Source of the DNA: a virus | Reading direction: 5' to 3' (one strand) | Length of the DNA: 64,000 nucleotides | IMG/VR virus record: IMGVR_UViG_3300029258_003221 | Location: 1-64,000 of that record | Shown: one piece after another, positions 3,740 through 6,356 of the stretch | How the letters are laid out: the number at the start of each line of letters is the position of its first letter | Position numbering within the stretch: the stretch's first letter is position 1 | Translations under genes and position numbers: made by a program | Notes under the pieces: generated by a model | What the model was told of the DNA's origin: nothing | Databases searched by the model: none | Seen by the model: the letters and a program-made list of their open reading frames with translations, nothing else

Positions 3740-3993
3740 AAAATCTGATCGACATCATTAATCAGATATTTGATGTGATACCAGACAGCTACGAAGATAA
3801 AGAATTTTTGTCTTTGAAGCTTGGGAGCATTAAAGAAAGCAGTAGATTGGCTTCACCAGAAACGCAAAGGCTTTGCTGGAGTAGATTTTTTTATGTCATT
3901 GACGAATGCATTTCGCCAATTGAAGAAGATTGGAAAACGTCAGTGGCTTTAATTATTCAAAGTGAAGCCACTGACTGGAAACAAGGTTTTTAA
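3736..3993 (+). CDS. Small hypothetical protein
   Basis: An 85-residue mixed-charge protein with no membrane segment or cysteine motif. Its ATG overlaps the TGA of the LSm-like gene (ATGA), so both are probably made from one transcript in fixed ratio. The family is not recognised. It converges with a minus-strand gene whose stop overlaps its own stop region at 3990-3993. Confidence 0.65.
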   Translation: MKNLIDIINQIFDVIPDSYEDKEFLSLKLGSIKESSRLASPETQRLCWSRFFYVIDECISPIEEDWKTSVALIIQSEATDWKQGF

Positions 3994-4933: not shown

Positions 4934-4978
4934 GCCACAGACATTAATTTCACTGTCATTTTGACACAGGAGAAGATC

Positions 4979-5329
4979 ATGAAACCCGACACGTAGAACG
5001 TCAAACATTACAGCTATATCTTTGTCAGGGAAGACCTGACAACCTCTCAGCAGGCGGTACAATGCTGTCATGCCGCCATCAACGCCACTGCCAAATACGG
5101 TCTAGGCGATTTGCCAGACCATCCTTATCTTGTCATCTTGGCAGTCAAGAATGAATCCAAGTTGCTCCGGGTACAAAAATACCTGTCAGAGCACGGAATT
5201 CAGTTCTCTTCTTTTCACGAGTCTGATCTCGATAATGAGCTTACGGCTATTGCGACCGAGCCCATTAAAGAGCATCAACGTGCAATCTTCCGCAAGTATC
5301 AGTGCCTTAAACCAAGGGAGGCTGCGTGA
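4979..5329 (+). CDS. Peptidyl-tRNA hydrolase 2 (PTH2)-like protein interrupted by in-frame TAG at codon 6
   Basis: An AGGAG Shine-Dalgarno lies seven bases before ATG 4979. The frame reads Met-Lys-Pro-Asp-Thr, then TAG (4994-4996), then a continuous 110-codon reading starting VKHYSYIFVRED and ending in TGA. The conserved body includes SQQAVQCCHAAINA, YLVILAVKNE and NELTAIATEPI, which match from memory the PTH2-like proteins of T4-type phages, whose conserved part begins exactly at KHY. No ATG, GTG or TTG exists between the TAG and the conserved core, and the first downstream start (TTG 5111) would delete a third of the fold. Production of the whole protein therefore needs reading of TAG, and a CUA tRNA lies 350 bases downstream. 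A pseudogene or a base error is the alternative. Confidence 0.7.
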
Positions 5330-5511
5330 TGAGTCAAATCAAAGACCTTATCGAAGAACTAAAATCTCTTACCCGTTATGACATGGAAGTCAGAGAATAT
5401 GGTCGAACCAAATTTCGTGATTCACATGCTGAAGCACGTGAAGTGGTTTCTGGAGATGGAGACTGGGTGGAGTGGGAAGATATTGTTTATTTGATCAAGG
5501 AGTATGAATGA
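5329..5511 (+). CDS. Small acidic hypothetical protein
   Basis: A 60-residue acidic protein starting at ATG 5329, with GGGAGG seven bases upstream; the stop of the PTH2-like gene overlaps this start (TGATG). The C-terminus GDWVEWEDIVYLIKEYE is a short amphipathic helix. It is the last protein gene before the tRNA island, with 10 bases between its stop and the first tRNA-like element. The function is unknown. Confidence 0.6.
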   Translation: MSQIKDLIEELKSLTRYDMEVREYGRTKFRDSHAEAREVVSGDGDWVEWEDIVYLIKEYE

Positions 5512-5521
5512 GTTTGAATGT

Positions 5522-5671
5522 GGGACAGAGGTGGATTGGTTCACACAAACCAACAATTTGTTGTTGGCCTGCATGGGTTCGAGTCCTGACAGGATGCAAT
5601 GAATTGTTGGGGAGGCAGAATTGCCAGCCGTTTTCGGAACGGCCTTGCAGGTTCGATTCCTGCCTGTCCCA
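5522..5671 (+). tRNA. Expanded tRNA-Arg(TCG)-like gene
   Basis: The 3' half is canonical. The anticodon arm is GCCGT-TTTCGGA-ACGGC (anticodon TCG at 5634-5636), the T-arm GCAGG-TTCGATT-CCTGC, and the acceptor strand CTGTCCC-A. The matching 5' acceptor strand GGGACAG is at 5522-5528, followed by a D-arm-like GTG-GATTGGTT-CAC. Between D-arm and anticodon arm lie about 80 extra bases (5545-5626), which themselves contain a second T-arm-like GGGTTCGAGTCC (5575-5586). The total of 150 bases is far above tRNA length. It may be a fusion of two tRNA genes, an interrupted tRNA that needs processing, or a decaying copy. Confidence 0.45.
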
Positions 5672-5676
5672 CTTAT

Positions 5677-5751
5677 GGGTGCGTAGCTCAATTGGCAGAG
5701 CAGCGAGTTCTAGCCTCGTGTTTGTTGCAGGTTCGATCCCTGTCGCACCTT
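5677..5751 (+). tRNA. Amber suppressor tRNA, anticodon CUA
   Basis: The cloverleaf is complete: acceptor GGGTGCG / CGCACCT (G1-U72 wobble), D-arm GCTC-AATTGGCA-GAGC, anticodon arm GCGAG-TTCTAGC-CTCGT, a 7-base variable loop, and T-arm GCAGG-TTCGATC-CCTGT. U33 is present and positions 34-36 (5710-5712) read CUA, which pairs with the stop codon UAG. Position 37 is G rather than the usual A for a tRNA ending in A36, and the discriminator base is U; no CCA is encoded. These features hint that it was derived by anticodon change from another isoacceptor. The amino acid it carries cannot be read. The genes immediately before and after the island contain early in-frame TAG codons. Confidence 0.78.
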
Positions 5752-5756
5752 TTTTA

Positions 5757-5914
5757 CCGCAGGTAGCTCAGTTGGTAGAGCGTTGCTTGTGTTGAAGCTA
5801 AGACAATGGTGTACAACATTGAATTAGTGAATGCACACGTGCTGTCAAAAGTGGCCACTTTTGGCTGTCATGTAAACATAGCAGAGGTCGGAGGTTCGAG
5901 TCCTCAACTGCGGA
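5757..5914 (+). tRNA. tRNA-like gene with an 85-base insertion in the anticodon loop
   Basis: The 5' half is standard (acceptor CCGCAGG, D-arm GCTC-AGTTGGTA-GAGC, then TTGCT at 5783-5787). The 3' half is standard too (AGCAG at 5880-5884, variable AGGTC, T-arm GGAGG-TTCGAGT-CCTC, acceptor CTGCGG). TTGCT pairs with AGCAG, so the expected 7-base anticodon loop is replaced by 92 bases (5788-5879). The insert holds a 16-base palindrome centred on GTGGCCAC. It is much shorter than a group I intron, and no splice choice gives a canonical U33 loop, so the anticodon cannot be assigned. It could be an intron-bearing tRNA, a tRNA-like regulatory RNA or a disrupted gene. Confidence 0.45.
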
Positions 5915-5954
5915 ATATTTTCATTTTTCCCCGGATAGAAAGGAAGAAGTTGTG

Positions 5955-6356
5955 ATGTAGAAATGGCATTGGAATCAAAAACTTGGACCTGAAAACTGTC
6001 CATACATGGTGCGATGGGTGTTTGATTTTTACTTCTTCACCATTCGTATTCATCATTGGCTTCATAGTGACGATTTGCGTCACCCCCATGATCATCCTTG
6101 GTCTTTTTGGGCCATTTGTTTGTGGGGCGGATACACAGATGTTTCACCAGATGGCGAGGACCGAGTGCGACCGGGAAGTGTACGGTTTCGCTCGGCTCTT
6201 CACCAACATTCTGTTAAAGTTGATGAAGGTGGATGTTGGACCATCCTTTTGACAGGACGTGAGCATCGTCGTTGGGGTTTTTGGGTTAATGGTAAGTTTC
6301 GTAAAAGAAACAAGTATTTCTATATGATGGGTCATCACAATCCATGTGATTCATAA
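5955..6356 (+). CDS. Conserved phage protein with in-frame TAG as codon 2
   Basis: AAGGAAG lies eight bases before ATG 5955, and the second codon is TAG (5958-5960). After it a single frame of 131 codons starts KWHWNQKLGPENCPYMVRW and runs to TAA. The body is rich in conserved His and Trp (RIHHWLHSDD, HPHDHPWSF, HQHSVKVDEG) and resembles from memory a cupin-like phage family whose homologues begin with the same KWxWN stretch. The next in-frame start (ATG 6006) would delete that conserved segment. Expression of the complete protein therefore appears to need TAG decoding by the adjacent suppressor tRNA. The His-rich core suggests a metal-binding beta-barrel. Its 3' end overlaps a convergent methyltransferase gene by six bases. 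Confidence 0.68.

Follow-up and report, generated by a model that had tools for sequence, protein, structure and literature searches.

Organization of the locus

The window analysed here comprises 64,000 nt, positions 1-64000 of a virus record of 234,631 bases that carries head genes of the T4-like type, encoding portal, major head protein, and terminase. The following features, all on the plus strand, are situated at the locus under study.

4968..4972, plus strand: Shine-Dalgarno sequence (AGGAG) belonging to gene 1, 6 nt 5' of the ATG, read in the sequence
4979..5329, plus strand: gene 1, PTH2-fold (peptidyl-tRNA hydrolase type 2-like) protein; the full product would need TAG decoded at codon 6
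4994..4996, plus strand: TAG with A as the next base, the putative amber gate of gene 1; gate position conserved among PTH2 clusters
5329..5511, plus strand: ORF of 60 aa that overlaps gene 1 at its 3' end (TGATG), read in the sequence; no Pfam match above the cut-off
5522..5671, plus strand: tRNA-like element, either degenerate or carrying an insert, with a long additional arm; partial Rfam tRNA match of 24.9 bits
5677..5751, plus strand: amber suppressor tRNA, anticodon CUA, between gene 1 and gene 2; ARAGORN, Rfam tRNA 52.2 bits
5757..5914, plus strand: tRNA-like element interrupted by an insert of 83 nt close to the anticodon loop; called as Asn GTT by ARAGORN when introns are allowed
5940..5944, plus strand: Shine-Dalgarno-like AAGGA of gene 2, read in the sequence
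5955..6356, plus strand: gene 2, cysteine-dioxygenase-like cupin (phrog_4786); the full product would need TAG decoded at codon 2
5958..5960, plus strand: TAG with A as the next base, the putative amber gate of gene 2, read in the sequence; a gated homologue is located on contig L288 at 4977

The initial annotation had described two genes, each with a Shine-Dalgarno sequence, an ATG, and an early in-frame TAG, on either side of a CUA tRNA. The sequence confirms this arrangement, and the tRNA is recovered by both ARAGORN and Rfam. In gene 1 the ATG at 4979 is followed by four codons, the TAG, and a frame that remains open to the TGA at 5327-5329 (M K P D T (TAG) N V K H Y S Y I F V R E D L), and in gene 2 the TAG directly follows the ATG and the frame is open to the TAA at 6354-6356 (M (TAG) K W H W N Q K L G). 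As had been proposed, both proteins would lose their N-termini unless TAG is read; no ATG, GTG, or TTG occurs between the TAG and the conserved N-terminus of either gene. In gene 2, the residues encoded directly 3' of the TAG match homologue N-termini in the alignment, and in Brevundimonas phage Bajun the start codon immediately precedes the aligned K; thus, the TAG is placed between start codon and conserved N-terminus in both genes. Elsewhere TAG behaves as an ordinary stop, terminating 38 of the 282 ORFs of at least 100 aa genome-wide. A codon-usage score did not set gene 1 and gene 2 apart.

According to ARAGORN, the CUA tRNA is the sole ordinary tRNA of the whole genome. Its label "tRNA-Pyl" is merely the name that this program gives to the CTA anticodon, and no match to PylS was found in the source genome (one control genome passes the cut-off). 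The tRNA carries G37 where A37 is usual, U73, and a G1-U72 pair, so that its charging and efficiency are uncertain. Both neighbouring tRNA-like elements bear inserts of about 80 nt; the upstream element folds with a z-score of -4.8, its acceptor, D, T, and anticodon-like arms being closed and accompanied by an additional arm of 15 bp. Introns are known from jumbo-phage tRNAs (PMC13037316). Outside the window, a very short tmRNA of 140 nt (Rfam tmRNA, 53.7 bits) was found on the minus strand at 134421-134560 of the source genome.

Gene 1 encodes a PTH2-like protein

Gene 1 matched the Pfam family PTH2 (PF01981) with 32.2 bits, above the curated cut-off of 23. Its AlphaFold model (pLDDT 94) gave 13 significant PDB matches with Pth2 structures on top, the closest being 2zv3, 3erj, 1q7s, and 1xty (E <= 1e-4, TM about 0.7-0.8), and the predicted three-dimensional fold is that of Pth2. 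The lysine beside the VQ..HA motif is presumably the catalytic residue of Pth2. None of the 23 aligned phage sequences has this lysine, which is expected beside the "GK" of archaeal and eukaryal Pth2; its absence counts against a simple enzyme reading, and hydrolase activity is not assured. Acidic and threonine residues of the second motif (E75, D77, and T83) are retained.

Close relatives were found neither with gene 1 alone as query nor by megablast of the first 12 kb of the window against phages, and for cellular relatives a single 17-residue match was obtained. Most of the relatives of the source phage that were identified via the portal protein lack both genes, with the exception of G008/L183 for PTH2.

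The gate is conserved among phage PTH2 genes

A profile search of IMG/VR yielded 80 further PTH2 loci. These were grouped with the named phages and the window at 90% identity into 66 clusters, a few ambiguous loci (fusions, L188, and inner ATGs) being assigned by hand. A start-proximal TAG was observed in 48 clusters and a TGA in two, TAA was found in none, and 16 clusters are ungated. Gated isolates are ME3, CBB, GAP32, BF, XbC2, Kaldavass, XacN1, RAS14, Arash, and pT24, and in most of them the PTH2 gene is misannotated, i.e., begun too late or omitted. Among the named relatives identified first, the in-frame TAG was located one or two codons after the ATG in ME3, CBB, GAP32, BF, Kaldavass, XbC2, Arash, LR756511, LR756500, and LR756501. 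In detail, the starts read ATG ACT TAG in ME3, ATG CTG TAG in Salmonella phage Arash, ATG AAA TAG in Tenacibaculum phage pT24, ATG GCA CAA TAG in CBB and GAP32, ATG ACG CAC TAG in BF, and ATG GCT CAC TAG in Kaldavass and XbC2. In case of XacN1, RAS14, CM1, L196, and L236, the PTH2 domain forms the end of a longer protein and the gate is situated at the start of that protein, in fusions 183 codons ahead of the PTH2 domain.

Codon 3 is the gate position in 28 of the 50 gated clusters, and where counted the stop never lies beyond codon 13. A Shine-Dalgarno sequence precedes the ATG by 4-12 nt in 35 of them, the spacing in the family being mostly 5-9 nt. The base following the gate stop is a purine without exception (50/50 clusters; A in 34, G in 16), whereas the two codons that follow begin with a purine in 54% (p 6e-14, an optimistic value since the clusters are related). 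The stop context thus looks selected for readthrough.

The gate is almost entirely a peculiarity of PTH2. In 1.89 Mb of related phage DNA, the combination of Shine-Dalgarno sequence, ATG, early stop, and long open frame occurred outside PTH2 nine times each with TAG, TAA, and TGA, so that no excess of other amber-gated genes over the TAA and TGA controls was observed; within PTH2 the same structure was counted 24 times with TAG and once with TGA. Ungated PTH2 genes occur, e.g., in K64-1, Hallingskeid, and Lak-B5. For K64-1 no CUA tRNA was found within the tRNA region read, and its ungated PTH2 is consistent with the gate model. Mycobacterium phages Alice and Myrna show NTG-TAG-GTG at the PTH2 start and were left unclassified. 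A second in-frame TAG is present in the PTH2 genes of L200, L201, L240, and L106 (LR756501). L237:2098 and L241:7234 each show an amber-gated PTH2 N-terminus whose frame continues into a homing-endonuclease-like ORF, with a full gated PTH2 gene located downstream.

The stop type matches the phage tRNA

In case of the gated phages ME3, Arash, CBB, BF, XbC2, and the metagenomic LR756500, LR756501, and LR756511, the presence of a CUA tRNA was checked and confirmed, and likewise for GAP32, Kaldavass, RAS14, XacN1, and pT24, where in pT24 it is located 2.6 kb from PTH2. At the IMG/VR loci the median distance between CUA tRNA and PTH2 is 0.7 kb. Considering loci with two or more tRNAs of which one is CUA, this tRNA was the one nearest to PTH2 at 21 of the 30, against 6.2 expected. 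Proximity extends to ungated PTH2 genes, 11 of 15 of which have a CUA tRNA near them, and to Alice and Myrna, where it is a close neighbour of PTH2. A lasting partnership of PTH2 and suppressor tRNA is therefore indicated at least as much as timing.

The two TGA-gated loci carry the other suppressor. For L214 (ATG AAG TGA) a UCA tRNA is situated about 0.3 kb upstream and for L225 (in-frame TGA) 4.6 kb upstream, and the flanks of both are devoid of a CUA tRNA. On the PTH2 tree, which is based on a short alignment and has many weak forks, they represent two separate switches among mostly amber-gated relatives. Hence the stop type matches the anticodon of the phage tRNA, TAG occurring with CUA and TGA with UCA in both TGA cases, a pattern that is difficult to account for unless the phage tRNA decodes the stop. 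Agrobacterium phage Atu_ph07 also carries a UCA suppressor tRNA (PMC6102473); its only match to the PTH2 profile is weak and no PTH2 frame was readable there.

Gated L182, L190, and L205 lack a CUA tRNA in the flank and carry one elsewhere on the contig. For about 10 gated loci no CUA tRNA was recognised on the sequence examined, some of these being short fragments and two being long contigs, L183 (527-kb) and L219 (358-kb); the search pattern misses some anticodon loops. The CUA tRNAs are diverse, with a median pairwise identity of 68% and CTCTAAA or TTCTAAA as loop in most. Some are recorded under other identities, namely as tRNA-Phe at L103:2507-2581 (Arash) and as tRNA-Ser at L283:6463-6534 (Myrna). 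Candidate ochre (TTA) tRNAs were observed in addition to a CUA tRNA at L264:2428-2502 (RAS14) and L242:13135-13213.

The cupin gene is a probable second, rarer target

Gene 2 belongs to the phage cysteine dioxygenase family phrog_4786 of PHROG (E 1.5e-32). One further gated case was found on the unrelated 176-kb contig L288, where both genes are gated in the order CUA tRNAs, PTH2, tRNA, and cupin, with ATG AGT CAC TAG at 3935 for PTH2, and AAGGAGG followed by ATG AAA GCA TGG TTC ACA TAG at 4977 for the cupin. The order PTH2, tRNA, and cupin is common to L288 and the window, but unlike in the window the two CUA tRNAs of L288 precede PTH2. L290, L292, and L304 have a CUA tRNA together with an ungated cupin; their PTH2 genes are gated, as read in L290 and L292. 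The gate on gene 2 is thus supported but rarer, and the assumption that the cupin of the source phage is gated like PTH2 is moderately supported.

A probable suppressor-tRNA-dependent gate and alternative explanations

The initial annotation had proposed a local, tRNA-dependent gate rather than a global change of the code, and the comparative evidence is in good agreement with this proposal. Relatives keep the TAG, or have TGA together with a UCA tRNA, which excludes a sequencing error. A conserved and selected translation gate on PTH2 that depends on a suppressor tRNA is strongly supported by comparison of the sequences. Presumably, ribosomes start at the normal Shine-Dalgarno sequence and ATG and reach UAG within a few codons, where RF1 would end the peptide unless the charged CUA tRNA of the phage reads the codon and allows full-length PTH2 to be made. 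The output of PTH2 would then be proportional to the amount of working suppressor tRNA. Early codons are the sites where peptidyl-tRNAs leave the ribosome, more so with a slow A site, and PTH recycles them (PMC10192219). Suppression combined with slow decoding at early codons may therefore lead to drop-off of peptidyl-tRNAs, including suppressor tRNA trapped as peptidyl-tRNA, and PTH2 made through the gate could clear these and keep the suppressor tRNA in use, which would result in a self-adjusting loop. The likely purpose of the gate is to couple a peptidyl-tRNA-clearing protein to active stop-codon suppression. Taken as a whole, the explanation of a PTH2 gate opened by the phage CUA tRNA, with the cupin gated likewise and the logic of a loop, appears highly probable to us. 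Whether this amounts to an undescribed natural circuit is a question on which we stay slightly short of an even judgement. In such a circuit a start-proximal stop and a linked cognate suppressor tRNA would serve as codon-specific lock and key, PTH2 would act back on the suppressor or on peptidyl-tRNA, and an old module would have spread through the jumbo phages of Proteobacteria and Bacteroidota, with the partnership kept in mycobacteriophages.

The gate might serve timing only, PTH2 (and here the cupin) being delayed until the phage tRNA is transcribed and charged, with no special tie between PTH2 and the suppressor. The joint occurrence of gate and cognate tRNA is compatible with this, and the gated cupins of the window and L288 suggest that a gate can be attached to other genes; however, timing alone does not predict a gate almost wholly confined to PTH2, nor CUA tRNAs beside ungated PTH2 genes (the 11 of 15 loci, Alice, and Myrna), and we consider this explanation rather unlikely. 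Reinitiation near a stop occurs in bacteria. A short leader peptide followed by reinitiation at an unusual start codon just past the TAG would dispense with readthrough, and the codon after the stop is ATT, ATC, or ATA in 15 of the 50 gated clusters and GTG in Alice and Myrna. Yet these 15 are the only clusters with a possible start of any kind at this position, the codon being no known start in the other 35, which argues against reinitiation. Most PTH2 genes also lack a start codon ahead of the conserved core, fusions place the gate far upstream of the domain, and the pairing of TGA with UCA tRNAs as well as the linkage to CUA tRNAs would be left unexplained, which makes such a leader improbable.

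Genome-wide reassignment of TAG (code 15), with both TAGs as mere examples, would account for the CUA tRNA and for the second in-frame TAG in a few PTH2 genes (LR756501, L200, L201, and L240). It is opposed by the 38 ORFs ending in TAG and by the lack of any phage release factor of the RF1/RF2 family found in the source genome. Furthermore, reading TAG as sense in the source genome and the loci of relatives increases coding coverage about as much as reading TAA or TGA as sense, and usually less, and on this comparison global reassignment was rejected as very improbable. Pseudogenes or sequencing errors might be suspected from the fact that annotators skip or truncate these genes, but gate position, stop type, and cognate tRNA are shared by a large number of independent isolates and contigs in which the conserved core is intact, and the probability of this explanation is negligible. 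The suppressor-dependent gate is the preferred explanation.

Comparison with known systems

Similar to pyrrolysine decoding, specific UAG genes would be read by a dedicated CUA tRNA; in contrast, the tRNA has a canonical shape and the TAG is situated in a variable leader and not in the active site. A very short frame of the type ATG-X-stop and a peptidyl-tRNA hydrolase also meet in the bar minigenes of phage lambda and the Pth of the host. The PTH2 gate resembles this combination, a leader of that type (gate at codon 3) being followed by a hydrolase-like protein, but in the PTH2 gate the hydrolase-like gene itself begins with the minigene-like leader. The bar minigenes and host Pth are discussed in PMC12487901. 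Code 15 recoding with suppressor tRNAs is known from crAss-like and Lak phages (PMC9523058, PMC13037316). As in these phages, a phage-encoded CUA tRNA would decode UAG, a codon at which the host normally terminates; unlike in these phages, TAG remains the genome-wide stop and a single start-proximal codon is recoded in one gene (two in the window).

The putative loop is comparable in its logic to the autoregulation of RF2, where the translation-factor gene prfB has an in-frame stop close to its N-terminus that serves as sensor (PMC12421855). The differences are that the stop would be bypassed in the same frame by a dedicated tRNA with no +1 frame change, as the downstream frame is unchanged, and that the product is PTH2-like and not a release factor; TAG, a stop of RF1, is reported never to occur in prfB (PMC12421855). 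Control of one gene by a suppressor tRNA and an amber codon is also the principle of a synthetic feed-forward gate (PMC7969014), which is engineered, whereas the PTH2 gate is natural and conserved.

Jumbo-phage PTH2 genes have been listed with no word of an in-frame stop (PMC7824862), and for XacN1, which has two CUA tRNAs, a suppressor target was sought and none was found (PMC5852040). No description of the gate was found in the literature joining phage suppressor tRNAs and peptidyl-tRNA hydrolase, a search largely outside subscription papers and preprints, so that an earlier description is possible. Apparently the gate was overlooked because annotation treats the PTH2 gene as broken. In many giant phages a stop is located at the start of a PTH2-like gene together with a matching tRNA, usually nearby, and the protein should be made only when this tRNA works. 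The gate supplies a target for the suppressor tRNAs that many jumbo phages bear with no known target, explains a widely misannotated gene, and may show why phages carry peptidyl-tRNA hydrolases. It would represent a natural case of a single gene under a dedicated suppressor tRNA, i.e., a gene-specific translation switch.

Irregular PTH2 starts in other phages

In Myxococcus phage Mx1 (L280, approximately 5973-6000), the Shine-Dalgarno sequence and ATG of PTH2 are followed by a TGA at codon 7 whose bypass would need a +1 frame change; this start, near a TROVE-domain gene, is possibly a prfB-like frameshift gate. A frame break was observed at the PTH2 start of Prevotella phage Lak-A2 (L282, approximately 5980-6010), and the copy of Lak-B5 has an open frame and no gate. 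Both Lak phages carry a tRNA with an ochre anticodon (TTA) near PTH2.
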